From: Phycicoccus sp.
Lineage (GTDB): Bacteria; Actinomycetota; Actinomycetes; Actinomycetales; Dermatophilaceae
DNA length: 64,000 nucleotides
Direction of reading: 5' to 3'
Assembly: GCA_017993715.1 (NCBI GenBank)
Contig: JAGOME010000001.1
Location: 62,001 to 126,000, forward strand
The notes beneath the pieces were generated by a model. The model was given only the letters and a program-made list of their open reading frames with translations, did no database searches and had not been told where the DNA came from. Within the stretch, counting starts at the first letter, position 1. Each line of letters begins with the position of its first letter. Position numbers and translations under genes: made by a program. Positions 16,429-37,575 of the stretch are shown here, piece after piece.

Positions 16429-16521
16429 GCAGGCGCCAACCGAGGGCTGCGGACACCGGCTGACTCGTCGAAAGAGCGGCCACCCGTCCCACTCTCCGCC
16501 CGGCTGAAGCGACCGGGCGAC

Positions 16522-16597
16522 AAAACCCGACTCCAGTCGGACTTTCACCCCGCCTGCCCCGCCCGCGGGTGACACAACCCGACACCCGTCGGACTTT
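16522..16597. repeat. Pair of GTCGGACTTTC hairpins, 52-bp spacing
   Basis: Two near-identical units read ACCCGACTCCAGTCGGACTT and ACCCGACACCCGTCGGACTT, starting about 52 bases apart (near 16525 and 16577). Each folds into a hairpin of about 10 bp with some wobble pairs. The same GAAAGTCCG-type arms recur as a pair 51 bp apart at 45871-45955, suggesting a dispersed paired-palindrome family. Confidence 0.6.
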
Positions 16598-16640
16598 CGC
16601 GGCCCACCTCCCCGACCTCGCCAGTCCCGGAAAGCGCGAC

Positions 16641-16678
16641 GTCCCCGGTTCCCACTGGGTCACAGCGGAACCGGGGAC
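16641..16678. terminator. 12-bp perfect hairpin
   Basis: Arms 16641-16652 and 16667-16678 are perfectly complementary (GTCCCCGGTTCC/GGAACCGGGGAC) around a 14-base loop. It lies just beyond the partial copy of the desaturase 3' end, where a leftward terminator would be expected for the original gene. Confidence 0.65.
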
Positions 16679-16685
16679 GACAGGC

Positions 16686-16788
16686 CACCCGCGAGCGGGC
16701 GGCATTCACACAGTGGACGCGATCAGCGGCCCAGCTTGCGCTTGCGCTGCGCCTTCTTGATCTCCAGGCGGATGATGTCGCGGCGGCG
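16686..16788 (-). repeat. 103-bp direct repeat, copy A (fragment of desaturase 3' end)
   Basis: This segment matches 17438-17540 at 102 of 103 bases. On the reverse strand 16723-16788 encodes the last 21 residues and stop of the fatty-acid desaturase, here detached from the gene. The remaining 37 bases are its downstream flank, including one CGGCATTC word. Confidence 0.9.
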
Positions 16789-16898
16789 GCCTGTCCGTCA
16801 GATGTCCATGCCATCACCTTCGGTGGCAACCGGCTGCGAAAGGTACCGCTCAATGAACCACTGCATTGATCAGTCCAGGCACTTGGCTGTTCTCGACC

Positions 16899-16914
16899 TC
16901 CAAGGAACCTTGGA
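16899..16914. promoter_or_regulatory. Palindrome upstream of YbjN-like gene
   Basis: TCCAAGGAACCTTGGA is a perfect inverted repeat of 7-bp arms with a two-base spacer, 29 bases before the start codon. It could be an operator or part of the 5' leader; no regulator is identified. Confidence 0.4.
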
Positions 16915-16943
16915 CGCACGCCCAAACCCTCAGGAGGCGTGAC

Positions 16944-17357
16944 ATGGCGACCTGGGACTCGGTGGTCACGTACATGCGCTCGAACTATCGAATCCAGGAG
17001 GAGATCCGAGATCGGGCCGGCGTCCTGACGGGTCTGCGTCTGACGTTCGGCTTGGATGACCTTCGCTCGCAGGTGGTGTTCCTCTTCCACAACCAACTGC
17101 GCGGCGGCGAGGAGTCCTGGGTCAACATCAGTTCGCCCTTCGGCATGGCGGCCGGGCTCGACCTCACCGCCGTCCTCGACGAGGTCGGGAACTACGTGTG
17201 CGGTGGGCTCGGCAAGGTCGGCGACCTGATTGTCCTGCAACACGCCGCACCGTTGCTCAACCTCGACATCAACGAGCTGGAACGTCCAATGTCGCTCATC
17301 GTGAACAGCGCTGATGACCTCGAGCGTCGATTCGGCTCGGCGGGGGACAACTTCTAG
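16944..17357 (+). CDS. Small YbjN/CesT-chaperone-like hypothetical protein
   Basis: This 137-residue soluble protein has the sequence character of YbjN/type III secretion chaperone-like folds: an N-terminal helix (WDSVVTYMRSNYRI), alternating strands with W-V-x-I-S-S-P-F-G, then NELERPMSLIVNSADDLERR at the end. An AGGAGG site lies seven bases before ATG 16944. The gene, with its own hairpin, sits exactly between two 103-bp copies of the desaturase 3' end, so it looks inserted next to that gene. The fold assignment is tentative and the function unknown. Confidence 0.7.
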   Translation: MATWDSVVTYMRSNYRIQEEIRDRAGVLTGLRLTFGLDDLRSQVVFLFHNQLRGGEESWVNISSPFGMAAGLDLTAVLDEVGNYVCGGLGKVGDLIVLQHAAPLLNLDINELERPMSLIVNSADDLERRFGSAGDNF

Positions 17358-17390
17358 CACGCCGCTGCGGTGGGCGCGGAGCAACGCGAT

Positions 17391-17429
17391 GGCCCCGGTT
17401 TTCGTTGCGTCGCAACGAGGACCGGGGCC
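17391..17429 (+). terminator. Nested hairpin after YbjN-like gene
   Basis: The outer arms GGCCCCGGT/ACCGGGGCC (17391-17399, 17421-17429) enclose a perfect inner 7-bp stem at 17403-17417. It lies between the convergent YbjN-like and desaturase genes and can act in both directions. Confidence 0.65.
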
Positions 17430-17437
17430 GTCGATGT

Positions 17438-17540
17438 CACCCGCGAGCGGGCGGCATTCACACAGTGGACGCGATCAGCGGCCCAGCTTGCGCTTGCGCT
17501 GCGCCTTCTTGATTTCCAGGCGGATGATGTCGCGGCGGCG
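17438..17540 (-). repeat. 103-bp direct repeat, copy B (intact desaturase 3' end)
   Basis: This is the partner of 16686-16788, at 752-bp distance, with one mismatch (T versus C near 17515). It contains the last 21 codons and stop of the intact desaturase plus 37 bases of downstream flank. Confidence 0.9.
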
Positions 17541-18836
17541 CCGGCCTTCGACCTTGTTGGGCAGCGAGAGCTGCACGACCTTCCAGTAGACCGAGGCCGC
17601 CTGCTTCCACAGCGGGCCCGTCACATATGGCAGGTCGTAGCGGTCCATGAGGTCGCGGATTCGCGGCGCGATCTCGGCATACCGGTTGCTCGGCATGTCC
17701 GGGTACAGGTGGTGCTCGATCTGGTGGGACAGGTTGCCGGTCAGGACGTGCATCGCCTTGGAGCCGGAGATGTTGCCCGAGCCGAGCATCTGGCGGACGT
17801 ACCACTCACCGCGGGTCTCGCCCTCGATCGACTGCTTCTCGAAGGTGGCGATCCCGGGCGGGAAGTGCCCGCAGATGATGACCGTGTTGGTCCACAGGTT
17901 GCGCACGAGGTTGGCGACGATGTTGGCAGTCAGGGTGCCGCGGACCGCACGCGTGCCGCCGACGACCGACAGCGCCGGGGCCACGAGATAGTCCTTGGTG
18001 GCCTGTTGCTTGATCTTCTGAACGACCTCTTGAGCGTTGGCGCGGAACTCCGCCTTGTCCTCTTCGCTCATCCGCTTCTTCTTGGCCATGTAGCCGCCGA
18101 GCTCGAGATCGTAGGCGGCGATGGAGTACTCGAAGACCAACGCGTTGCCCACGTGCCAGATCGGCTGGAACAGCGCGAAGAGCGACCACTTCTGGTCCTC
18201 GTCGACCCGCAGAATGCCGTAGCCGAGGTCGTTGTCGCGGCCCAGCACATTGGTGAAGGTGTGGTGGATCTGGTTGTGGGAGTGCTTCCACTGGCTCGAT
18301 GGGGAGGCGTTGTCCCACTCCCAGGCGGTCGAGTGGATCTTGGGGTCACGCATCCAGTCCCACTGGCCGTGCATGACGTTGTGGCCGATCTCCATGTTTT
18401 CTAGGATCTTGGCGATCGACAGGCCGGCCGTGCCGATCCACCAGGCCGGGCGAATGCCGCGGACCTTGACTCCCGAGAACAGCAGGACGGCGCGGCTGCC
18501 CAGCTCCAGCCCCCGCTGGATCTTGATGACCCGACGGATGTAGGCGGCGTCGCGCTCGCCGCGGCTGGCCATGACCTCGTCGCGGATCTCTTCGCACTCG
18601 CGGCCAATGGCCTCGATGTCCTCGGGGCTGAGGTGATAGGCCGGGTTGGGGCGCCCGGACCTCTTGAACTCCGGCCGCTGCGGACGCGGGTCGGCACTGG
18701 TCAGCGCCAGGCGCGAGTTGATGTCGTGGTGGGGGACGGCCGTGTGCACCGTGCCCTCTTTGTGGGGCTCGGTCGGGGAGATCTCCCGGCGCGGGTGCGG
18801 GGAGAGGCTCGTGGCGCGGTCGGGGGCGAGGGTCAT
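17475..18836 (-). CDS. DesA3-type membrane fatty-acid (acyl-CoA) desaturase
   Basis: This 453-residue membrane di-iron desaturase has three histidine boxes: HNVMHGQWDW, HSHNQIHHTFTNVLG and HQIEHHLYPDMPSNRY. These and the surrounding segments (MRDPKIHSTAWEWD, LGYGILRV) match the mycobacterial DesA3 linoleoyl/stearoyl-CoA delta-9 desaturase family. The start MTLAPDRATSL at 18836 is preceded by AAGGAG. Electrons should come from the oxidoreductase encoded just upstream in the same leftward operon. The terminal 21 codons are duplicated at 16686-16788. The C-terminus is rich in basic residues. Confidence 0.92.
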   Translation of the reverse strand: MTLAPDRATSLSPHPRREISPTEPHKEGTVHTAVPHHDINSRLALTSADPRPQRPEFKRSGRPNPAYHLSPEDIEAIGRECEEIRDEVMASRGERDAAYIRRVIKIQRGLELGSRAVLLFSGVKVRGIRPAWWIGTAGLSIAKILENMEIGHNVMHGQWDWMRDPKIHSTAWEWDNASPSSQWKHSHNQIHHTFTNVLGRDNDLGYGILRVDEDQKWSLFALFQPIWHVGNALVFEYSIAAYDLELGGYMAKKKRMSEEDKAEFRANAQEVVQKIKQQATKDYLVAPALSVVGGTRAVRGTLTANIVANLVRNLWTNTVIICGHFPPGIATFEKQSIEGETRGEWYVRQMLGSGNISGSKAMHVLTGNLSHQIEHHLYPDMPSNRYAEIAPRIRDLMDRYDLPYVTGPLWKQAASVYWKVVQLSLPNKVEGRRRRDIIRLEIKKAQRKRKLGR

Positions 18837-18933
18837 GGTCTCGTCACTCCTTGGGTGTCGCGATTCCGGTCGATGGTCAGGTGCTGAGGTGCTTGGGGAA
18901 CAGCCTGCGGTATGCCGGGTGCTCCCGGGAAGG

Positions 18934-20106
18934 TCACAGGTCGAGATCGCAACTGCCGGCGACGGCATTCACGCAGGTCTGGATGGGGAGCTCGTCGCCC
19001 GGCTCGGCGATGGTGATCTCTCCGGTGCGCAGGTCGCGGACCGCGCCCTGGTGCAAGGTGACCACGCAGCCCATGCAGATCCCCATGCGGCAGCCGCTCG
19101 GCATGAGGACGCCGGCGTCCTCCCCGGCGTCCAGGATCGTCGTCGAGCCGTCGGCGTCGATGGTGACGTCACTGGCCAGGAAGGTGATCTCGCCGCCTTC
19201 GCCGCCCTCGATCAGGGTCGGGCGGAAGCGCTCGACGTGCAGGGCGTCGGCGAGGTCGGCGTCGGCCCAGTAGCTCTCGGCAGCATTGAGCAGGCCGGTT
19301 GGGCCACAGACCCACGCCCGGCGCTCGCGCCAGTCCGGGACGACCTGATCGAGTGTCGCCAGGTCGAAAATGCCGGACTCGTCGTCGAGGTGCTGGACCA
19401 GTCGCAGGCGACCCGAGGCGGCATACGAGCGCAGTTCGTCGGCGAAGATGACGTCCTTGGCGCTGGGCGCCAGGTGCACGTGGACGACGTCGGATAGGTC
19501 GGACAAGCGGCTGCGCAGCATGCCCATGACGGGGGTGAGCCCCGAGCCGGCCGTGATGAAGAGAATCTTGGCCGGCGGGGTGCTCGGCAGGACGAAGTCC
19601 CCAGTCGCCTGGTCGAGGTGGACCAGGATGTCGGCGGGCGCCCGCCGGACGAGGTAGTTGGACACCAGCCCGTCCGGGATCGCCTTGCTCGTGATGGAGA
19701 TGAGCCCATCGGCGCGGCGCACATCGTGGGTCAGCGAATAGGCCCGCCAGTACCGCACACCGTCGATGTCGACGCCGATCCGGATGTACTGCCCTGGCGT
19801 GTGACCCGCCCAGTCCTTGCCGGGCTGGATCGTGATCGTCGCGGCATCCGCGGTCTCGGCGGTGATCGACACGACCTTGCCGCGCAGGTCGGCGCCGGCG
19901 CGCAGGGGATCGAACAGGTCGAGATAGTCATCGGGCACGCGGGGGGTGCTCATCGCGCTGGCGATCCGCTTAACCACGCTGGTCAGGCCAAAGCCCCCAG
20001 TCGGGGCGGCCCAGCGGCTCTGTGCTTGGCGCACGGCGTGGGCCCGTTTGGGCCTTCTGCTGGCAGGGTCGCTGGAGCGGTCCTGGGTCGTCGTCACACG
20101 GGCCAC
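18934..20106 (-). CDS. Ferredoxin-NAD(P)H oxidoreductase, desaturase partner (Rv3230c-like)
   Basis: This 390-residue flavo-iron-sulfur protein has an FAD domain (GQYIRIGVDIDGVRYWRAYS), an NAD(P) domain (ITAGSGLTPVMGMLRS, WVCGPTGLL) and a C-terminal plant-type 2Fe-2S domain with CRMGICMGC and a final cysteine in PIQTCVNAV. It passes electrons from NAD(P)H to the desaturase encoded 97 bases downstream, as Rv3230c does for DesA3. A GTG at 20106 or 20097 starts it. Twin TACG...CGTA operators lie only eight bases upstream of the first GTG, so the mRNA is likely near-leaderless and tightly controlled. Confidence 0.92.
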   Translation of the reverse strand: MARVTTTQDRSSDPASRRPKRAHAVRQAQSRWAAPTGGFGLTSVVKRIASAMSTPRVPDDYLDLFDPLRAGADLRGKVVSITAETADAATITIQPGKDWAGHTPGQYIRIGVDIDGVRYWRAYSLTHDVRRADGLISITSKAIPDGLVSNYLVRRAPADILVHLDQATGDFVLPSTPPAKILFITAGSGLTPVMGMLRSRLSDLSDVVHVHLAPSAKDVIFADELRSYAASGRLRLVQHLDDESGIFDLATLDQVVPDWRERRAWVCGPTGLLNAAESYWADADLADALHVERFRPTLIEGGEGGEITFLASDVTIDADGSTTILDAGEDAGVLMPSGCRMGICMGCVVTLHQGAVRDLRTGEITIAEPGDELPIQTCVNAVAGSCDLDL

Positions 20107-24720: not shown

Positions 24721-26224
24721 GGCGTACCTCGGACTTTCCGTAGCAGTAGGCGAGCAGGGTTTCTTCGTCCGCGTCCGCGGCCGCGATTTCGCCGGAGACC
24801 CAGCCCTCGTGGAGGATCATGATGCGGTCGCTCATCCCAATGAGTTCGGGCAGTTCTGAGCTGACGACGACGATGGCCGTGCCGTCCTCGGCGAGCCGGC
24901 GGATCAACCGATAGATCTCGGCCTTCGTCCCGACGTCGATCCCGCGCGTGGGCTCGTCCATGAGCAACACGTGCGGTGTCCGGGCGAGCATCTTGGCCAA
25001 GACGACCTTTTGCTGATTGCCACCGGAGAGTTCTTCGACGTGCTGGCGGGAGCTGCGGGCCTTGATCTGCAACTCGGCGATGCCGCGCTTGGCCAGCTCG
25101 ACGACCCGGCCACCGGCGACCACTCCCGAAGAGCTGACCGCTCCCAGGTTGGCGATGGCGATGTTGTCCTGGATGGAGGCCTTGAGCATGACGCCCTGGC
25201 TGCGGCGCTCCTCCGGCACCAACGCCACACCGGCCTCCAGGGCCCGCTCGACACCGGGCGATGCCGGGAGGGTGCGGTCGCCGACCGTGATCGACCCCGT
25301 CGTATGCCGTTGCGCCCCAGCCAGAATGCGCAGCAGTTCGCTACGCCCGGCTCCGGCCAGGCCACCGATGCCGAGAACCTCCCCGGCGCGCACGCTCAGG
25401 GACACGTCGCGGACCTTGTGCCCGGATAGTCCCTCGGCGGTCAGGGCCGTGTCAGCCACGGCCGTGGCACGTGGGGGAAACAGCTCGGACGCGGACCGCC
25501 CGACCATCAACGAGATGACCTCGTCGACGTGCGAGTCGGCCACATCCTTGGTGACGATGGTTTCGCCGTTGCGCATGATGGTCAGCCGGTCACACAGCTC
25601 GAAGACTTCCTCGAGGCGGTGGGACACATAGACGATGGCGACCCCGCGATCCCGCAACGACCGCAGCACCGCGAACACGTCGACGATCTCCGTGTCGGTC
25701 AGGGAGGCGGTTGGCTCATCGAGGATGAGCACCCGCGCGTCGGTGGCCAGGGCCCGCGCGAACGCCACCATCGTCTGCTGCACCGGGGACAGGTCAGCGC
25801 CGAGCCGACCCAGCGGGATGTTCTCGTTGAGGATCTCCAACTGGGTGCGCGCCTGTCGGCGCACGTCCTTCCATCGCACGATTCCTCGCCGGGCCGGCAG
25901 GTGCTCGCCGAGGACGATGTTCTCGGCGACGCTGATCGTCGGGATGATCGAGAGCTCCTGGTAGAGCGCCACGACCCCCGCCTGCTTGGCCTGGGCCACG
26001 TTGCCGAACTCGATGTCGGCGCCGGCGACGCGGATGGTTCCGGAGTCCGGGGCGTGCAGGCCGGTGAGGATCTTGATCAGGGTCGACTTGCCCGCGCCGT
26101 TCTCGCCCAGGAGCGCGTGGATCTCGCCGGGGCGCACGTCCAACCGGGCCCGGTTCAGCGCGTGAACTCCTTCGAACCGTTTGATGACATCGACGGCCTC
26201 GAGGGCGTAAGGCGCCGAGGTCAT
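24713..26224 (-). CDS. Sugar ABC transporter ATP-binding protein, two ATPase domains (RbsA-like)
   Basis: This 503-residue tandem ATPase has a first domain with Walker A GENGAGKST near residue 41, a modified signature LSPVQQT and Walker B LILDEPTAS. The second domain has the degenerate Walker A GLAGAGRSE, a canonical LSGGNQQK signature and LLMDEPTRGID. This asymmetry is normal for the RbsA/XylG/MglA family. The ATG overlaps the stop of the zinc alcohol dehydrogenase (ATGA, 26221-26224). A decayed second copy of this gene survives at 33654-34072. Confidence 0.93.
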   Translation of the reverse strand: MTSAPYALEAVDVIKRFEGVHALNRARLDVRPGEIHALLGENGAGKSTLIKILTGLHAPDSGTIRVAGADIEFGNVAQAKQAGVVALYQELSIIPTISVAENIVLGEHLPARRGIVRWKDVRRQARTQLEILNENIPLGRLGADLSPVQQTMVAFARALATDARVLILDEPTASLTDTEIVDVFAVLRSLRDRGVAIVYVSHRLEEVFELCDRLTIMRNGETIVTKDVADSHVDEVISLMVGRSASELFPPRATAVADTALTAEGLSGHKVRDVSLSVRAGEVLGIGGLAGAGRSELLRILAGAQRHTTGSITVGDRTLPASPGVERALEAGVALVPEERRSQGVMLKASIQDNIAIANLGAVSSSGVVAGGRVVELAKRGIAELQIKARSSRQHVEELSGGNQQKVVLAKMLARTPHVLLMDEPTRGIDVGTKAEIYRLIRRLAEDGTAIVVVSSELPELIGMSDRIMILHEGWVSGEIAAADADEETLLAYCYGKSEVRHD

Positions 26225-27294
26225 GACGAGGCCACCGGGTCCGGCACGTCGTTGCATCGGATGATGACTTTGGGGTGGGTGCCGCTGAGGTGCATTCGGA
26301 ATGCGTTGGCGGCATCTTCGAGGTCGAAGATGGCGGTGGTTAACTCGTCGACGTGGAGGTGGGGCAGGACCGCCAGGGCGCGGGGGAACGCGTAGGGGGA
26401 GATGAAGACCCCCGAGAGCGTGAGTTCTTTGAGGTAGAGGTAGTCGGAGAGGTTCAGGGGCATTTGGTAGGTCGCGGGGTACATGGCGCCATAGATCACG
26501 GTGGCGCCCTTGGCCGCCAGATCGAGCAGGCCCGCGACCGCCCGGGTCGAGCCGGAGGCGTCGATGACCACGTCGAAGCCTCGACCGTGGGTGAGGTCGT
26601 CCACCACGGCCTGCTGGTCTTGGGCGATCGGGTCGATGACGTGCTGGGCGCCGTGACGCAGCGCCAGGTCGCGCCGCTCCGCGATCGGTTCGATCATCGT
26701 CAGTGAGGTCGCGCCGTAGCGCTTCATCACCTGCAGGACCAGCTGCCCGATGGGGCCTCCCCCGCACACCAGCACGGTGTCACCGACCTTGATCCCGGTC
26801 TTGTCGGCGATGCGCACCGCGACCGAGGTGGGCTCCAGCAGGCAGCCCTTGAGGAGGGAGACGTCGTCGGGGAGCCGGTAGACCTGTGATTCGTGCCAGG
26901 TCACTCGCTGGGCCATCCCGGGCCGGTTGTAGTCCTGGATGAACTCGCAGAACTGCTGCGTGCCGGCTTGGCAGGCCCGGCAGGTCCCACAGAACCGAAT
27001 GAAGTTCCCGGCAACCCGATCACCGACGGCCAGGCCGTTGCGCTGGGCCCGCTCCCCGAGGGCCTCGACGACCCCCGAGATCTCGTGCCCGAGCCCGATG
27101 GGGACCTCGGTGCGGAAATAGCCCTCCGCGACATGCGGATCCGAGCCGCAGATGGCCGCGTACGCGACCTTGATCCGCACGTCCTCCGGGCCGAGCTCGT
27201 GCTCGGGGAAGTCAACGACCCCGATGGCGCCACGTTCACTCTCGTCCGTGGCGCGCAGGTTCCCCAGTTTGGTCACTGCAACAGTTCTCATCAC
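26221..27294 (-). CDS. Zinc-dependent alcohol dehydrogenase (sorbitol/threonine dehydrogenase-like), copy 1
   Basis: This 357-residue medium-chain dehydrogenase has the catalytic zinc site in CGSDPHVAEG and GLGHEISGVVEALGE, a structural zinc cluster CGTCRACQAGTQQFC and the NAD-binding VLVCGGGPIGQLVLQV. Family members oxidise polyols, threonine or sugar alcohols. The gene is identical to 34070-35137 apart from its last codons, because the 2,882-bp duplicated block begins at 26231 inside its 3' end. It lies 15 bases after the transketolase C-half gene and overlaps rbsA, so it is a core enzyme of this operon. Confidence 0.92.
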   Translation of the reverse strand: MMRTVAVTKLGNLRATDESERGAIGVVDFPEHELGPEDVRIKVAYAAICGSDPHVAEGYFRTEVPIGLGHEISGVVEALGERAQRNGLAVGDRVAGNFIRFCGTCRACQAGTQQFCEFIQDYNRPGMAQRVTWHESQVYRLPDDVSLLKGCLLEPTSVAVRIADKTGIKVGDTVLVCGGGPIGQLVLQVMKRYGATSLTMIEPIAERRDLALRHGAQHVIDPIAQDQQAVVDDLTHGRGFDVVIDASGSTRAVAGLLDLAAKGATVIYGAMYPATYQMPLNLSDYLYLKELTLSGVFISPYAFPRALAVLPHLHVDELTTAIFDLEDAANAFRMHLSGTHPKVIIRCNDVPDPVASS

Positions 27295-29112
27295 GATCCT
27301 CGATTCCGCTCAGCTGCGTGTCAGGGTGCGGCGGGCGGCGGCCAGGGTGGCGCGGTGGCCGTAGCCGTGCTTGTCGCGCAACTCCACGTCGTTGCCGAAA
27401 CCGGCGTAGACCTGGGGGATCCCCAACCGTTCGAATGCCGTGAGGCAGATGCCGTGGTCGGTCACAACGTCCGCGATCCGGGTCGCCAAGCCACCGTAGG
27501 CCAGGTGGTCCTCCAGGACCACGAAACGGCCGTGGGTCTCGGCCGCGCAGCGGACCACCAGATCCGCGTCGATCGGCTTGATGGTGAACATGTCGACCAC
27601 CCGAACCGAACAGCCTTCCTCAGCCAACTCCTCCGCGACGTCAAGGGCCTGCGCCACCGTCGTGCCATGGGTGAAGATCGTCAGGTCGTGCCCATCACGG
27701 GCCACGATGCCCTGACCGATCCGGATCTCGTGCTGGCCAGGTTCGTACAGCACCCGATCAGCCTTGCCGACCGCGAGCCGGATGTAGAGGGGGCCGTCCA
27801 TGCTCATGGACTGGCGCAGCACCTCGCCGACCATCTGCGGGTCACCGATCGAGGTGACGGTCATGTTGGTCAGCGCCCCCATGAGGGTCAGGTCCTCGAC
27901 CGCGTAATGAGTCGATCCACCGTTGCCGACCAACCCGCCATGGGTCCCGATGATCTTCACCGGCAGGTTCGGGTAACACACGTCAGTGCGGACCTGCTCC
28001 AAAGCCCGCATGCTCAGGAAGGGCAGCATGCCCGACACGACGGGAATGTTGCCGTCATACGCCAGACCAGCCGCGACCCCGACACAGACCTGCTCGGCCA
28101 GGCCGACATCCAGGAACCGATCCGGGTACTTCTCCTGGAACTCCACGAGAGTGGCCCCGATGTCCGGGGTGAGAACCCAGAGGTTGTCATGGCTCTCCCC
28201 GAGCTCGGCCAGAGTGCTCCCGATGACCGAGCGAGCAGAGAGCATCTCTCCGAACGTGAACGTGACCGGCATCAGATGCTCGCCTTCTCGCGGGTGGAAT
28301 TCAGCGCCGCCAGGGCGCGTTCGAGATCGGCGGCGCCCAGCGATCCGGCATGCCAGGCCAAGTTGTGCTCCATGAAGTCCACACCCTTGCCCTTGACCGT
28401 CTCGGCAATGATCACCGTCGGGACATCGCTGCCAGGATCGGGCAGGGCATCGAGGGCCGCGACCAGCGCCGCCATGTCATGCCCATCGCACTCCACAACA
28501 TTCCACCCGAACGCCCGCCACTTATCGGCATACGGCTCGAACGCGACACGGTCCTCCGCGAAACTCGTCATGAGTTGACGGTTCCGGTCGATGATGGCCA
28601 CCAGATTGCCCAAACGGTTGCTGCGACCGGCCATCACGCCCTCCCACACCGAACCCTCACCGGTTTCGCCGTCGCCCATCAACGTGAAAACCCGATGCCG
28701 CTCACCGCGATGCCGCGCACCCAAAGCCATACCAACCGCAAGCGGAAGCCCATGACCCAGCGACCCGGTCGAACACTCAACCCCAGGCAACTGCACCTTG
28801 CACGGGTGCATCCCATACGCGCTATCGAGCTGGCCGTATGTCGCGACGATCCCCTCATACGAAAAGAAACCACGCATCGCCATCGCGATATACATGCACA
28901 CCGCGGCGTGACCCTTACTCAGGACGAACCGGTCACGGGCCGGGTTGGCCAGGTCGGTCGGATCGACCCGCAAGCCGTAGTGGTACAACGCAGTGAAAAT
29001 GTCAGCCGCGGACAAGTCCCCACCAATATGCACCGCCCCCTCGTACGTCCCACACAACTCCAAGAGTTTGGTACGCAACTCGAACGCGCGATCCTCCAGT
29101 TCGGCGACGCTG
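26231..29112. repeat. 2,882-bp direct repeat, copy 1 (adh-tktC-tktN)
   Basis: This block is aligned to 34074-36955 with a constant offset of 7,843 bases and no indels. All encoded proteins and opposite-strand frames are identical, so the DNA appears identical. Sequences on both sides diverge but remain recognisably related (rbsA on one side, divergent promoter and aldehyde dehydrogenase on the other). Confidence 0.92.
27310..28272 (-). CDS. Transketolase C-terminal half (split enzyme), copy 1
   Basis: This 320-residue subunit carries the pyrimidine-binding and C-terminal domains of a transketolase encoded as two proteins. The cofactor-activating glutamate lies in DVGLAEQVCVGVAAGLA, and GTHGGLVGNGGSTHYAVED and FTHGTTVAQALDVAEEL are typical. 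It works with the N-half encoded by the overlapping upstream gene and thiamine diphosphate to move two-carbon ketol units. Such split transketolases are frequent in catabolic operons of actinobacteria and firmicutes and include variants for unusual sugars. The gene is identical to 35153-36115. Confidence 0.92.
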   Translation of the reverse strand: MPVTFTFGEMLSARSVIGSTLAELGESHDNLWVLTPDIGATLVEFQEKYPDRFLDVGLAEQVCVGVAAGLAYDGNIPVVSGMLPFLSMRALEQVRTDVCYPNLPVKIIGTHGGLVGNGGSTHYAVEDLTLMGALTNMTVTSIGDPQMVGEVLRQSMSMDGPLYIRLAVGKADRVLYEPGQHEIRIGQGIVARDGHDLTIFTHGTTVAQALDVAEELAEEGCSVRVVDMFTIKPIDADLVVRCAAETHGRFVVLEDHLAYGGLATRIADVVTDHGICLTAFERLGIPQVYAGFGNDVELRDKHGYGHRATLAAARRTLTRS

Positions 29113-29150
29113 GGCGATGCCCCGGTCGCCAGCCTTGGCTGGCTCATCAT
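28272..29150 (-). CDS. Transketolase N-terminal half (split enzyme), copy 1
   Basis: This 292-residue subunit contains the thiamine diphosphate-binding signature GDGETGEGSVWEG...N near residues 150-180, the conserved SKGHAAVCMYIAM and the LGHGLPLAVGMALGA segment. It overlaps the C-half gene by one base (stop/start). The N-terminal nine or so codons after MMSQP differ from those of copy 2 (36115-36993), although the rest is identical, which fixes the right border of the duplicated block at 29112. It is first in the eight-gene operon and divergent from the aldehyde dehydrogenase. Confidence 0.92.
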   Translation of the reverse strand: MMSQPRLATGASPSVAELEDRAFELRTKLLELCGTYEGAVHIGGDLSAADIFTALYHYGLRVDPTDLANPARDRFVLSKGHAAVCMYIAMAMRGFFSYEGIVATYGQLDSAYGMHPCKVQLPGVECSTGSLGHGLPLAVGMALGARHRGERHRVFTLMGDGETGEGSVWEGVMAGRSNRLGNLVAIIDRNRQLMTSFAEDRVAFEPYADKWRAFGWNVVECDGHDMAALVAALDALPDPGSDVPTVIIAETVKGKGVDFMEHNLAWHAGSLGAADLERALAALNSTREKASI

Positions 29151-29270
29151 GCCTCCTCATTGATGACACGAACGTCGCTGGGGTTCCCCTGCGCGACCCT
29201 CCCTGAAGCTCTCGAAGTCCTTGCGGCGGACGGCTTTCGCTGGAAGTGACGGTGACGCTAGCACGAAGGC

Positions 29271-29294
29271 GTTTACAAGTAAACAGGTATACCT
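29271..29294. promoter_or_regulatory. Shared operator, site 1
   Basis: GTTTACAAGTAAAC (29271-29284), a perfect palindrome around a two-base centre, is directly followed by AGGTATACCT (29285-29294), a second perfect palindrome. The pair sits between divergent tktN and aldehyde dehydrogenase genes. Near-identical elements occur at 37118-37141 and, for the first half, 44079-44092. Confidence 0.7.
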
Positions 29295-29378
29295 CTAGAC
29301 TTTCGCGTGACGCGGATCATGCGTCGTCGACGCGCATCGCGGGTATCGACTGACTCAAAACACAGAGAGGTGGTTTGT

Positions 29379-30872
29379 ATGTCTGACACGGTGACATCAA
29401 CAGGGACCCGGACGGGGCTGTACATCGGGGGCGAGGAACGGTGGACCAACGAGGTGCTCTCCGTCGCCGACCCGGCCAAGCCGGGCACCGTCGTCGGCGA
29501 GGCCAGCGCGGCATCGACTCAGGACGTCGCCGACGCGGTGGCGGCGGCCAAGGGCGCATTCCCGGCCTGGTCCGCCCTCTCGGCTGCCCAACGTGCGGAG
29601 GCCATGGCTGAGGCGATCGCCGGGATCGCCGACGATCGCGACGAGGACGCGGCGATCCTGTCTCAGGAGAACGGCAAGGTCCGGTTCGAGGCCTGGGTCG
29701 ACGCCCTCGTCTTCGAGATCAGGTGGAACCTGGCTCTGATGCTGGCCGACCAGGTTGACGCCGGCACCGTGCTTGAGCCCGCGCCCGGTATCCCGATCAC
29801 GACCCAGGTGGGCTATCAACCCCTCGGTGTTGTCACCGTGATCGTGCCGTTCAACTGGCCGATCGCCATCCTCGGCGCAGCTCTCCCCCACGCCCTGCTG
29901 GCCGGCAACACCGTCATCGTCAAGCCCCCGCCGTCGGCGCCCCTCGCGACCGCCCGCGTGGTGCAGCGGGTCGCGGCCAAGCTGCCCCCCGGCGTGCTCA
30001 ACGTCGTCACCGGCGCCGACGCCAACATGGCCGGACTGATCGAGAGCCCCGACATCGCCAAGGTCTGCTTCACCGGCAGCGTCAACGGCGGCAAGCGCAT
30101 CATGGAGATGGCCAGCAAGAACCTGACCCGGGTCACGCTCGAACTCGGCGGCAACGATGCGGCAGTGTTCCTGCAGGACGCTCAGGTCGACGACGTCCAC
30201 CTCGACCGGCTCTATTCCGCCATCTTCGACACCACGGGCCAGATCTGCATGAACGCCAAGCGGGTGTTTGTCCACCGGTCGCGGATGGACGAGGTGGTCG
30301 CTGGGATCGCGGCTCGCCTCGACCAGGCGGTGCTGGGATACGGCCTGGACCAAGGCACGACCATGGGGCCGCTCCACCAAGTCGCCCAGAAGGCCTTCGT
30401 CGAGGATCTCATCGCCGAGGCCAAGGCCGCTGGTGCGGATGTCCGGGAGTTCGGCACCCTGCCCGAGGGGGAGTTGGCCGGCGGCAACTTCGTCCGCCCG
30501 GCCATCATCGTGGACCCGGATCTGTCCCTTCGGGTGGTGACCCAGGAGCAGTTCGGCCCGGTGATCCCGGTCATCCCGTTCGACACCGAGCAGGAGGCCA
30601 TCACCTTGGCCAACGACACCTGGGGTGGTCTGTGCGGCTCGGTCTGGACCGCCGATCCCGACGCCGCCCAACGGGTCGGGTCCCAACTCGAGTGTGGCTA
30701 CGTCTGGGTCAACGACCACGGCGCCACCCGGTTGGACCTGCGCGCCCCGTTCGGTGGCATGAAGCAGTCCGGCTTCGGCCGCGAACAGGGCATTCAGGGC
30801 GTGCGGGCGTTCCAGGACACCCGTTCCATCGCCACCATCGACCCGGAGGCGCTGGCCGCGATGGCCCACTGA
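29379..30872 (+). CDS. NAD(P)-dependent aldehyde dehydrogenase (copy 1)
   Basis: This 497-residue aldehyde dehydrogenase has VTVIVPFNWPIAILG for cofactor and transition-state binding, the general base in LTRVTLELGGNDAAV and the nucleophilic cysteine in GQICMNAKRV. FGGMKQSGFGREQG is near the end. It oxidises an aldehyde to the acid. GAGAGG upstream supports ATG 29379; a longer upstream frame is not conserved with the paralogue. Paralogues are the intact gene at 44184-45659 and the remnant at 37200-37575. It faces the transketolase operon across the shared operator and ends at a strong hairpin. Confidence 0.92.
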   Translation: MSDTVTSTGTRTGLYIGGEERWTNEVLSVADPAKPGTVVGEASAASTQDVADAVAAAKGAFPAWSALSAAQRAEAMAEAIAGIADDRDEDAAILSQENGKVRFEAWVDALVFEIRWNLALMLADQVDAGTVLEPAPGIPITTQVGYQPLGVVTVIVPFNWPIAILGAALPHALLAGNTVIVKPPPSAPLATARVVQRVAAKLPPGVLNVVTGADANMAGLIESPDIAKVCFTGSVNGGKRIMEMASKNLTRVTLELGGNDAAVFLQDAQVDDVHLDRLYSAIFDTTGQICMNAKRVFVHRSRMDEVVAGIAARLDQAVLGYGLDQGTTMGPLHQVAQKAFVEDLIAEAKAAGADVREFGTLPEGELAGGNFVRPAIIVDPDLSLRVVTQEQFGPVIPVIPFDTEQEAITLANDTWGGLCGSVWTADPDAAQRVGSQLECGYVWVNDHGATRLDLRAPFGGMKQSGFGREQGIQGVRAFQDTRSIATIDPEALAAMAH

Positions 30873-33653: not shown

Positions 33654-34072
33654 CCCACCATGAGTGAGATGACCTCGTCGACGTGCGAGTCAACCACATC
33701 CTTGGAGACGATGGTTCAGCACCGCGAACACGTCGACGATCTCGGTGTCGGTCAGGGAGGCGGTCGGCTCATCGAGGATGAGGACGCGCGCGTCAGTGGC
33801 CATCGTTCGGGCAAAGGCAAACATCGTCCGCTGGACCGGCGAGTGGTCCGCCCCGACCGTGCCGAGAGGGATGTCCTCGTTGAGCGCAGCGAGTCCGGAG
33901 CGCGGACGGCACCGAGCCCCTTGATCAGTGTGACTTGCCCACCGTTCTCGCCCAGGAGCGCGTGGATCTCGCCGGAACGCACCGACAACCGCGATCCCTT
34001 ACGGGCAGGCAGACCCTCGCGAGCTCTTGACGAGGCTGATCGCCTCCAGGGCTGCCGATTCCCCGGTGGTCA
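33654..34072 (-). pseudogene. Decayed second copy of the rbsA-like ATPase gene
   Basis: On the reverse strand this stretch is clearly homologous to the rbsA-like gene at 24713-26224: the segment coding EISLMVG, a VLILDEPTAS region and the N-terminal GEIHALLGEN piece are in the right order but with internal deletions and frameshifts. The Walker A motif is destroyed. It sits where rbsA would follow the adh gene in copy 2 of the operon. Divergence is much greater than in the adjoining identical 2,882-bp block. Confidence 0.85.
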
Positions 34073-35137
34073 TGCCACCGGGTCCGGCACGTCGTTGCAT
34101 CGGATGATGACTTTGGGGTGGGTGCCGCTGAGGTGCATTCGGAATGCGTTGGCGGCATCTTCGAGGTCGAAGATGGCGGTGGTTAACTCGTCGACGTGGA
34201 GGTGGGGCAGGACCGCCAGGGCGCGGGGGAACGCGTAGGGGGAGATGAAGACCCCCGAGAGCGTGAGTTCTTTGAGGTAGAGGTAGTCGGAGAGGTTCAG
34301 GGGCATTTGGTAGGTCGCGGGGTACATGGCGCCATAGATCACGGTGGCGCCCTTGGCCGCCAGATCGAGCAGGCCCGCGACCGCCCGGGTCGAGCCGGAG
34401 GCGTCGATGACCACGTCGAAGCCTCGACCGTGGGTGAGGTCGTCCACCACGGCCTGCTGGTCTTGGGCGATCGGGTCGATGACGTGCTGGGCGCCGTGAC
34501 GCAGCGCCAGGTCGCGCCGCTCCGCGATCGGTTCGATCATCGTCAGTGAGGTCGCGCCGTAGCGCTTCATCACCTGCAGGACCAGCTGCCCGATGGGGCC
34601 TCCCCCGCACACCAGCACGGTGTCACCGACCTTGATCCCGGTCTTGTCGGCGATGCGCACCGCGACCGAGGTGGGCTCCAGCAGGCAGCCCTTGAGGAGG
34701 GAGACGTCGTCGGGGAGCCGGTAGACCTGTGATTCGTGCCAGGTCACTCGCTGGGCCATCCCGGGCCGGTTGTAGTCCTGGATGAACTCGCAGAACTGCT
34801 GCGTGCCGGCTTGGCAGGCCCGGCAGGTCCCACAGAACCGAATGAAGTTCCCGGCAACCCGATCACCGACGGCCAGGCCGTTGCGCTGGGCCCGCTCCCC
34901 GAGGGCCTCGACGACCCCCGAGATCTCGTGCCCGAGCCCGATGGGGACCTCGGTGCGGAAATAGCCCTCCGCGACATGCGGATCCGAGCCGCAGATGGCC
35001 GCGTACGCGACCTTGATCCGCACGTCCTCCGGGCCGAGCTCGTGCTCGGGGAAGTCAACGACCCCGATGGCGCCACGTTCACTCTCGTCCGTGGCGCGCA
35101 GGTTCCCCAGTTTGGTCACTGCAACAGTTCTCATCAC
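34070..35137 (-). CDS. Zinc-dependent alcohol dehydrogenase, copy 2
   Basis: This 355-residue medium-chain zinc dehydrogenase is identical to the product of 26221-27294 except that it ends two residues earlier (PDPVA). Zinc ligands and the NAD motif are all intact, so the copy should be active although its transporter partner genes are lost. It is the last intact gene of operon copy 2. Confidence 0.92.
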   Translation of the reverse strand: MMRTVAVTKLGNLRATDESERGAIGVVDFPEHELGPEDVRIKVAYAAICGSDPHVAEGYFRTEVPIGLGHEISGVVEALGERAQRNGLAVGDRVAGNFIRFCGTCRACQAGTQQFCEFIQDYNRPGMAQRVTWHESQVYRLPDDVSLLKGCLLEPTSVAVRIADKTGIKVGDTVLVCGGGPIGQLVLQVMKRYGATSLTMIEPIAERRDLALRHGAQHVIDPIAQDQQAVVDDLTHGRGFDVVIDASGSTRAVAGLLDLAAKGATVIYGAMYPATYQMPLNLSDYLYLKELTLSGVFISPYAFPRALAVLPHLHVDELTTAIFDLEDAANAFRMHLSGTHPKVIIRCNDVPDPVA

Positions 35138-36955
35138 GATCCTCGATTCCGCTCAGCTGCGTGTCAGGGTGCGGCGGGCGGCGGCCAGGGTGGCGCGGTG
35201 GCCGTAGCCGTGCTTGTCGCGCAACTCCACGTCGTTGCCGAAACCGGCGTAGACCTGGGGGATCCCCAACCGTTCGAATGCCGTGAGGCAGATGCCGTGG
35301 TCGGTCACAACGTCCGCGATCCGGGTCGCCAAGCCACCGTAGGCCAGGTGGTCCTCCAGGACCACGAAACGGCCGTGGGTCTCGGCCGCGCAGCGGACCA
35401 CCAGATCCGCGTCGATCGGCTTGATGGTGAACATGTCGACCACCCGAACCGAACAGCCTTCCTCAGCCAACTCCTCCGCGACGTCAAGGGCCTGCGCCAC
35501 CGTCGTGCCATGGGTGAAGATCGTCAGGTCGTGCCCATCACGGGCCACGATGCCCTGACCGATCCGGATCTCGTGCTGGCCAGGTTCGTACAGCACCCGA
35601 TCAGCCTTGCCGACCGCGAGCCGGATGTAGAGGGGGCCGTCCATGCTCATGGACTGGCGCAGCACCTCGCCGACCATCTGCGGGTCACCGATCGAGGTGA
35701 CGGTCATGTTGGTCAGCGCCCCCATGAGGGTCAGGTCCTCGACCGCGTAATGAGTCGATCCACCGTTGCCGACCAACCCGCCATGGGTCCCGATGATCTT
35801 CACCGGCAGGTTCGGGTAACACACGTCAGTGCGGACCTGCTCCAAAGCCCGCATGCTCAGGAAGGGCAGCATGCCCGACACGACGGGAATGTTGCCGTCA
35901 TACGCCAGACCAGCCGCGACCCCGACACAGACCTGCTCGGCCAGGCCGACATCCAGGAACCGATCCGGGTACTTCTCCTGGAACTCCACGAGAGTGGCCC
36001 CGATGTCCGGGGTGAGAACCCAGAGGTTGTCATGGCTCTCCCCGAGCTCGGCCAGAGTGCTCCCGATGACCGAGCGAGCAGAGAGCATCTCTCCGAACGT
36101 GAACGTGACCGGCATCAGATGCTCGCCTTCTCGCGGGTGGAATTCAGCGCCGCCAGGGCGCGTTCGAGATCGGCGGCGCCCAGCGATCCGGCATGCCAGG
36201 CCAAGTTGTGCTCCATGAAGTCCACACCCTTGCCCTTGACCGTCTCGGCAATGATCACCGTCGGGACATCGCTGCCAGGATCGGGCAGGGCATCGAGGGC
36301 CGCGACCAGCGCCGCCATGTCATGCCCATCGCACTCCACAACATTCCACCCGAACGCCCGCCACTTATCGGCATACGGCTCGAACGCGACACGGTCCTCC
36401 GCGAAACTCGTCATGAGTTGACGGTTCCGGTCGATGATGGCCACCAGATTGCCCAAACGGTTGCTGCGACCGGCCATCACGCCCTCCCACACCGAACCCT
36501 CACCGGTTTCGCCGTCGCCCATCAACGTGAAAACCCGATGCCGCTCACCGCGATGCCGCGCACCCAAAGCCATACCAACCGCAAGCGGAAGCCCATGACC
36601 CAGCGACCCGGTCGAACACTCAACCCCAGGCAACTGCACCTTGCACGGGTGCATCCCATACGCGCTATCGAGCTGGCCGTATGTCGCGACGATCCCCTCA
36701 TACGAAAAGAAACCACGCATCGCCATCGCGATATACATGCACACCGCGGCGTGACCCTTACTCAGGACGAACCGGTCACGGGCCGGGTTGGCCAGGTCGG
36801 TCGGATCGACCCGCAAGCCGTAGTGGTACAACGCAGTGAAAATGTCAGCCGCGGACAAGTCCCCACCAATATGCACCGCCCCCTCGTACGTCCCACACAA
36901 CTCCAAGAGTTTGGTACGCAACTCGAACGCGCGATCCTCCAGTTCGGCGACGCTG
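34074..36955. repeat. 2,882-bp direct repeat, copy 2 (adh-tktC-tktN)
   Basis: This is the partner of 26231-29112. Its flanks are the decayed rbsA gene on the left and a related but diverged tktN N-terminus, promoter and aldehyde dehydrogenase remnant on the right. Confidence 0.92.
35153..36115 (-). CDS. Transketolase C-terminal half (split enzyme), copy 2
   Basis: This 320-residue protein is identical to the one encoded at 27310-28272. All cofactor residues are intact. It overlaps the N-half gene by one base and lies 15 bases before adh copy 2. With no importer, SDR or epimerase following, this copy supplies extra dose of the core enzymes only. Confidence 0.92.
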   Translation of the reverse strand: MPVTFTFGEMLSARSVIGSTLAELGESHDNLWVLTPDIGATLVEFQEKYPDRFLDVGLAEQVCVGVAAGLAYDGNIPVVSGMLPFLSMRALEQVRTDVCYPNLPVKIIGTHGGLVGNGGSTHYAVEDLTLMGALTNMTVTSIGDPQMVGEVLRQSMSMDGPLYIRLAVGKADRVLYEPGQHEIRIGQGIVARDGHDLTIFTHGTTVAQALDVAEELAEEGCSVRVVDMFTIKPIDADLVVRCAAETHGRFVVLEDHLAYGGLATRIADVVTDHGICLTAFERLGIPQVYAGFGNDVELRDKHGYGHRATLAAARRTLTRS

Positions 36956-36993
36956 ACCTTCTGGCCATGGGCCCGATGTGGCTGGCTCATCAT
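36115..36993 (-). CDS. Transketolase N-terminal half (split enzyme), copy 2
   Basis: This 292-residue protein is identical to copy 1 (28272-29150) from residue about 14 onward, but its first residues read MMSQPHRAHGQKV rather than MMSQPRLATGASP. The thiamine diphosphate motif is intact. It is transcribed leftward from a promoter region that keeps the shared operator at 37118-37141. Confidence 0.92.
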   Translation of the reverse strand: MMSQPHRAHGQKVSVAELEDRAFELRTKLLELCGTYEGAVHIGGDLSAADIFTALYHYGLRVDPTDLANPARDRFVLSKGHAAVCMYIAMAMRGFFSYEGIVATYGQLDSAYGMHPCKVQLPGVECSTGSLGHGLPLAVGMALGARHRGERHRVFTLMGDGETGEGSVWEGVMAGRSNRLGNLVAIIDRNRQLMTSFAEDRVAFEPYADKWRAFGWNVVECDGHDMAALVAALDALPDPGSDVPTVIIAETVKGKGVDFMEHNLAWHAGSLGAADLERALAALNSTREKASI

Positions 36994-37117
36994 GTCCTCC
37001 CTATTGATGACACGAAGCCGCTGCCGTTACCCGAGGCGGAACAGTTCCGAGCCCCTGCCGTGCGAGCGGCCGTCCGGCTGCTTTGGCCGGAAGTGAGGCC
37101 GACCGTAGCACGATGAC
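36994..37117. other. Diverged promoter region of operon copy 2
   Basis: This gene-free stretch upstream of tktN copy 2 resembles the copy 1 region (29151-29270) only in short blocks (ATTGATGACACGAA near 37003, GGAAGTGA near 37090). It holds no coding signal. Confidence 0.6.
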
Positions 37118-37141
37118 GTTTATAAGTAAACAGGTATACCT
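37118..37141. promoter_or_regulatory. Shared operator, site 2
   Basis: GTTTATAAGTAAAC (37118-37131) followed directly by AGGTATACCT (37132-37141) matches site 1 (29271-29294) at 23 of 24 positions. It persists although the neighbouring region is only weakly conserved, and it still lies upstream of tktN copy 2. Confidence 0.7.
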
Positions 37142-37199
37142 CTATACTCTGTGAGGGCCGGTCGGGAGATGCTTGAGCTCTTCGGGCATGGGACACGGA

Positions 37200-37575
37200 C
37201 GCAAAACACCACAGAGATGGTGGGTGACGTCCACGATGGGTGCCTACCGGCCTGTTCGTGGAGGTCGTGAGCGATTCACCGATGATGTTCTGGCAGTTGC
37301 TGATCCGGGCGACGCAGCGATCCTGTGACAGGAGAACAGCAAGATTCGGTTCGAGGCCTGGAACGACGCCCTCGTCTTCGAGATCCGCCGGAATCTGGCC
37401 TGGCCGTCGCCGACGGGGTCGACACGGGAAGGACCCTCGAGCCCGCCCCGGCATACCGGTTGCCACCCAGGCGTCCTACCAGCCCCCGAAGGGGTGACGG
37501 TCATCGGGCCGGTCAACTGGCTGATCGCCACACTCGGCGTCGCATTGCCGCATGTCTCGCTCAGGCGGGCCTGCG
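37200..37575 (+). pseudogene. Aldehyde dehydrogenase remnant (copy 2)
   Basis: Fragments of the aldehyde dehydrogenase gene at 29379 are visible in order: the start-proximal CAAAACACCACAGAG, the segment coding KIRFEAWNDALVFEIR, then stretches matching the PAPGIP and VIGPVNWLIATLG regions. They contain deletions, a stop codon and frameshifts, and the 3' two-thirds is missing. The position, divergent from tktN copy 2, mirrors copy 1. Confidence 0.85.

Follow-up and report, generated by a model that had tools for sequence, protein, structure and literature searches.

How did a single orphan gene come to lie between two copies of the 3′ end of a desaturase gene in Phycicoccus sp., with the desaturase itself left whole? 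The locus lies in the window, by which we mean the whole 64,000-nucleotide stretch of contig JAGOME010000001.1 that was analysed. A repeat search of the window returned a direct repeat of 103 nt with 99% identity and a spacing of 752 (Table 1). The preliminary description had reported this repeat with one mismatch, and alignment and BLAST of the window against itself confirm it; the aligned block has an E value of 2.9e-49, which excludes a chance origin. The sole mismatch (C at 16762, T at 17514) is silent as read from the sequence, since both copies have a Glu codon there (GAG in the far one, GAA in the desaturase gene). Set against the desaturase ORF, the doubled segment comprises 21 sense codons, the stop and 37 downstream bases, just as described, and the ORF is complete as claimed (497 aa, PF00487 with E 5e-25). 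With one silent mismatch and an intact desaturase, the earlier proposal of a recent insertion that left its target gene whole is supported. A looser alignment stretches 50 bp to the left of both copies because each abuts a CCCCGG...CCGGGG hairpin. Since this left stretch is much more diverged than the 103 bp, we leave it out of the duplication; the hairpin stretches left of the two copies are probably two unrelated terminators.

Table 1. Features of the desaturase locus, in window positions.
Feature	Position	Strand	Basis or remark
Strong hairpin just beyond the far copy	16636..16685	.	z −4.6
Far (truncated) copy of the desaturase 3′ end	16686..16788	−	Repeat search and alignment
Unique insert	16789..17437	.	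649 bp, between the copies
Orphan-gene leader	16789..16943	+	155 bp; weak hairpin in 16895-16925
Orphan gene	16944..17357	+	137 aa; type III secretion chaperone/YbjN-like predicted fold
Strong hairpin	17383..17437	.	z −8.3
Near copy, functional desaturase 3′ end	17438..17540	−	Repeat search and alignment
Complete fatty acid desaturase, insertion target	17475..18968	−	ORF list, PF00487

The insert has a GC content of 0.629, compared to 0.675 for the window, and carries one gene, convergent with the desaturase. A consensus scan of its leader returned no sigma-70-like promoter. Neither a recombinase nor a transposase was found among the ORFs of the 752-bp unit, whether in the ORF list or with Pfam, in agreement with the earlier statement that the unit holds no integrase. 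The unit thus lacks the integrase of an integrase-driven island and the transposase of a transposon or insertion sequence. What it does present is foreign DNA bounded by two direct copies of a portion of a resident gene, without a recombinase, as expected for a single crossover with an end-joined donor. Two hairpins had been placed between the copies. One strong hairpin is indeed there, between the orphan gene and the desaturase (−44.6 kcal/mol), and is probably a terminator shared by the two genes; the second one inside, however, is weak (z −1.4), and the other strong one lies outside, left of the far copy, where by analogy with the Luteipulveratus loci described below it probably served as the desaturase terminator before the insertion. 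Hairpins that resemble terminators and have conserved stems (of the GAATGCCGCCCGC and CGGACTTTC types) are dispersed in intergenic regions across the genome, for example at 16514-16598 of the window. The motif GAATGCCGCCCGC, which occurs inside the repeat and has four matches within three mismatches in the window against 0.08 expected, was considered as a recombination site and dropped as a cause of the duplication because it is the stem of this genome-wide hairpin family and some of its matches seem to be coding.

The product of the orphan gene matched no sequence family in Pfam, NCBIfam, PADLOC or PHROGs, and five members of its family tested against PADLOC gave no match either. Its predicted fold resembles those of SycT (Z 8.8), DR_1245 (Z 7.8) and E. 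coli YbjN (6vu7; Z 6.3), in a low-confidence model (mean pLDDT 62.7) built on an alignment of two sequences, the window protein and its relative at locus L073. Chaperones of the type III/YbjN fold occupy the top rows of the structural comparisons with this model, although the best E value in Foldseek is 5.6e-3. Weak family matches appear among nine relatives, TY-Chap1 (E 0.025) in two and CesT (E 0.033) in one, and the window protein has none. The label YbjN-like is therefore reasonable for the predicted fold, which resembles that of YbjN, DR1245 and the type III secretion chaperones, but not for family membership, as there is no sequence match to these proteins at threshold.

An initial search of named genomes, with the orphan protein alone as query, gave no match. 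Of the 186 genomes of the family, 4 have a homologue, and sampling gave 4 of 396 genomes for the order and 4 of 394 for the class. Each tally counts the window's own genome, and there are 11 loci overall; no relatives were found on plasmids, phages or viral contigs. This rare and patchy distribution (4/186 in the family) suggests that the gene was probably gained by transfer. Flanking repeats are present at two of the 11 loci and eight have none that count. The remaining locus (in genome G237) has a diverged tandem copy of a DUF4191 gene end alongside (L078, 9353-9565; 82% identical), which adjoins the orphan homologue upstream of a glnA-like gene. We considered a link between the orphan gene and the repeats; in the two flanked loci its orientation and position are opposite, so that the gene is probably cargo. 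Small cysteine-rich ORFs adjoin the orphan homologue at two loci (L070 in G140 and L069 in G087) and are possibly a conserved partner of the gene that is absent from the window.

The closest parallel, a second and independent case, comes from Luteipulveratus sp. YIM 133296 (G087), where a 43% identical orphan gene lies within a 4.65-kb insert that also holds histidine kinase-like and response regulator genes by Pfam. On either side of this insert stands a copy of the end of a DUF3017-type gene, comprising its last 16 codons and the stop; the copies are identical over 50 bp and align over 58 bp at 97%. In the sister genome G089, nothing is inserted between mdh and the DUF3017-type gene, which supplies for the G087 insert the empty site expected of an integrase island. 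Moreover, the terminator by the stop in G089 is similar to the sequence that flanks the far copy in G087, and the flank of the near copy in G087 is new. Because the far copy retains the ancestral downstream sequence, the gene end was either carried in or doubled by the incoming DNA, and together with the empty site this marks the event as an insertion that duplicated the end of the host gene. A further relative, G088, has another insert at that position, and no repeat accompanies it. A desaturase match was present in 135 genomes, and we read the desaturase loci of 30 of them, the window's own included. None of the 29 others has the repeat, two of these having under 1.1 kb of downstream sequence. 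Relatives that share the arrangement with diverged repeats, which would have marked it as ancestral, were thus looked for and not seen at these loci; the window's genus is represented by one genome in the set.

We surveyed 1.95 Mb (806 kb of the window's genome, G000, and 381 kb each of G140, G089 and G105) for direct repeats of 40-300 bp that are at least 85% identical and 300-10,000 bp apart. Dispersed palindromes, tandem arrays and paralogous stretches were set aside by eye, a few rows on their stem, spacing and flank columns alone. Besides the desaturase, two more single-gene inserts at gene ends emerged. In the window's genome, the end of an AraC-type gene is repeated (contig C84, 42730-42789 and 43773-43832; 60 bp, 90%) with one DUF2510/DUF4328 gene between. 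In G089, a ClpB-like gene end plus terminator is repeated over 109 bp at 95%, around one gene without a Pfam match; this repeat is mainly terminator and includes no more than three sense codons and the stop. In all three single-gene cases the new gene converges on an intact target. The pieces of G140 and G105 yielded no small single-gene insert of this kind; G140 has a 56-bp tRNA-end repeat around 4.3 kb. A 99-bp, 98% repeat around 4.4 kb of AAA/TPR genes on contig C56 of the window's genome does not coincide cleanly with a gene end. The AraC-type and G237 repeats, both diverged, could be old paralogue remnants. With the DUF3017-type case, the architecture is present at four unrelated gene ends, the window's included, and the cargo is unrelated save for the orphan gene common to two. 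The inner repeat ends fall at differing places in these unrelated genes, as end-joining junctions would be expected to do. The names mdh, folD, glnA, serS, ClpB-like, DUF3017, Xer and RIT-like are those we presume to apply to the sequences concerned.

Other repeats in the window's genome were recorded in passing. The regions 25499-30793 and 33654-37539 of the window hold two long direct copies (26072-29301 and 33920-37148) that are 96.6% identical over 3.2 kb and lie about 7.8 kb apart, with weaker blocks flanking them; each copy has at least three ORFs, and the duplicated module looks catabolic. Five copies of an imperfect palindrome of about 60 bp, REP-like in appearance, occur within 7 kb of contig C9 (36883, 37984, 38392, 41559 and 43672). 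On contig C76 (L136, 73110-73343), a tRNA gene 3′ end starts a 107-bp unit that runs in tandem up to a run of N, and this may be an array of att-like sites in tandem or else a fault of the assembly.

The reading that we favour, and hold at somewhat less than even confidence, is that the 752-bp unit is a recent single-gene insert acquired without a recombinase, from an end-joined donor by one homologous crossover. A fragment carrying the orphan gene beside a desaturase 3′ end would have come from a near-identical strain, its ends would have been joined to form a circle, and one homologous crossover within the short gene end would have integrated that circle. The product would have the order far copy, new gene and intact desaturase, with the last 103 bp of the target duplicated, and selection may have kept only those events that left the desaturase whole. 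The circle, the single crossover, the donor and the selection for an intact gene are the parts of this model that we infer. Ku (PF02735), which the window's genome encodes, is present in all five family genomes tested, compared to one of 14 controls. In PMC3240628, 56 of 60 clones from E. coli conjugation with one-sided homology carried an insertion in which part of the homologous gene end was duplicated (109-950 bp in the 14 clones that were sequenced), explained there by a single crossover with recircularised donor. This product has the architecture seen at the desaturase, foreign DNA between direct copies of a gene end without a recombinase, and is the reason why we favour recombinase-free capture; the E. 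coli events arose under laboratory selection with a plasmid, whereas the window has a natural single gene with no donor identified. Among the family, order and class genomes searched, none had the orphan gene next to a desaturase in the absence of the repeat, as a donor strain would. The Vibrio T6SS arrays described in PMC5361080 likewise have small genes beside the 3′ ends of a resident gene. There, in connection with homology-facilitated illegitimate recombination, effectors are replaced and the ends displaced, whereas the window has an intact resident gene whose end has been copied. Counting against recombinase-free capture, besides the donor that was not found, are the fact that no empty site was seen for the window's own species, whose genus contributes one genome to the set, the small share of orphan loci that are flanked (2/11) and an 11-mer, CGCCGCCGCGA, common to the desaturase and DUF3017 repeats.

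That 11-mer lies near the inner ends of both repeats, and only 17 of 3000 random gene-end pairs share a word of such length. It speaks for the main rival, a remnant or satellite of a site-specific element that targets gene 3′ ends, with the copies as attL and attR and the integrase lost or acting in trans, a reading we consider rather unlikely. Tyrosine integrases classically produce a direct repeat that restores the 3′ end of a gene; the desaturase locus has one, and 103 bp with one silent change would fit. The 4.3-kb unit at the tRNA end in G140 also has the textbook shape of an island. The 752-bp unit, however, holds no recombinase, and a home-made HMM built from the genome's own matches (control positive) found no tyrosine recombinase in the fetched family loci, that of G087 included. 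The genome has five PF00589 matches, two of them Xer-like, which we take to be XerC and XerD, and three adjacent on contig C72; at none of the 29 other desaturases is the gene end occupied. Islands of this class, such as SGI1 reported at trmE (PMC8409611), share with the window a repeat that restores the target 3′ end, but the window unit differs in having no integrase, one cargo gene and a length of 752 bp. Site-specific integration or trans-mobilisation, as first proposed, remains no more than a proposal, the same architecture at four unrelated gene ends fitting general repair or recombination at least as well. A close variant of the favoured capture, which we regard as improbable, has a stray fragment caught at a staggered double-strand break, with fill-in of the overhangs duplicating the target and Ku/LigD joining the ends. 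The presence of Ku, the varying repeat length and the near-identity of the copies (1/103 here, 0/50 in G087), which a host-derived duplication explains, agree with it, but overhangs of 50-109 nt would be long and no direct trace of a break is seen.

Tandem duplication with loss was also raised in the preliminary description; it would have doubled an ancestral segment with orphan gene and desaturase end, the first orphan gene then being lost. Similar hairpins stand to the left of both copies and tandem duplications exist elsewhere in the genome, the 3.2-kb pair in the window being one. Yet the hairpin stretch has diverged much further than the 103 bp, no remnant of an orphan gene is seen left of the far copy, and the far copy in Luteipulveratus keeps its ancestral flank, which leads us to disfavour this course of events as quite improbable. 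Still less probable, and in our view very much so, is an assembly artefact: the genome is a draft of 109 contigs in which the 107-bp tandem repeat on C76 (near 73110) abuts a run of N, but the joins at 16788/16789 and 17437/17438 have no common overlap able to cause a false merge, one base distinguishes the copies, and other assemblies show the same architecture.

Extending recombinase-free capture from this locus to the family, we suggest, as a doubtful generalisation for now, that its members recurrently take up single genes, usually convergent, through gene-end duplications of 50-110 bp that would arise by end joining and a short-homology crossover and leave a readable scar. The literature searched gave no description of this exact scar, a copied gene end around a single-gene insert. 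We take the observation and its reading as an insertion both to be right and the mechanism to be unproven; the result is modest for one locus and worth a systematic scan. Little is understood of how lone orphan genes get into bacterial genomes when no mobile element can be recognised. The copied gene end would make such events findable by sequence alone and datable by the divergence of the repeats, and would open capture of this kind to tests in laboratory strains that have or lack Ku/LigD or RecA.
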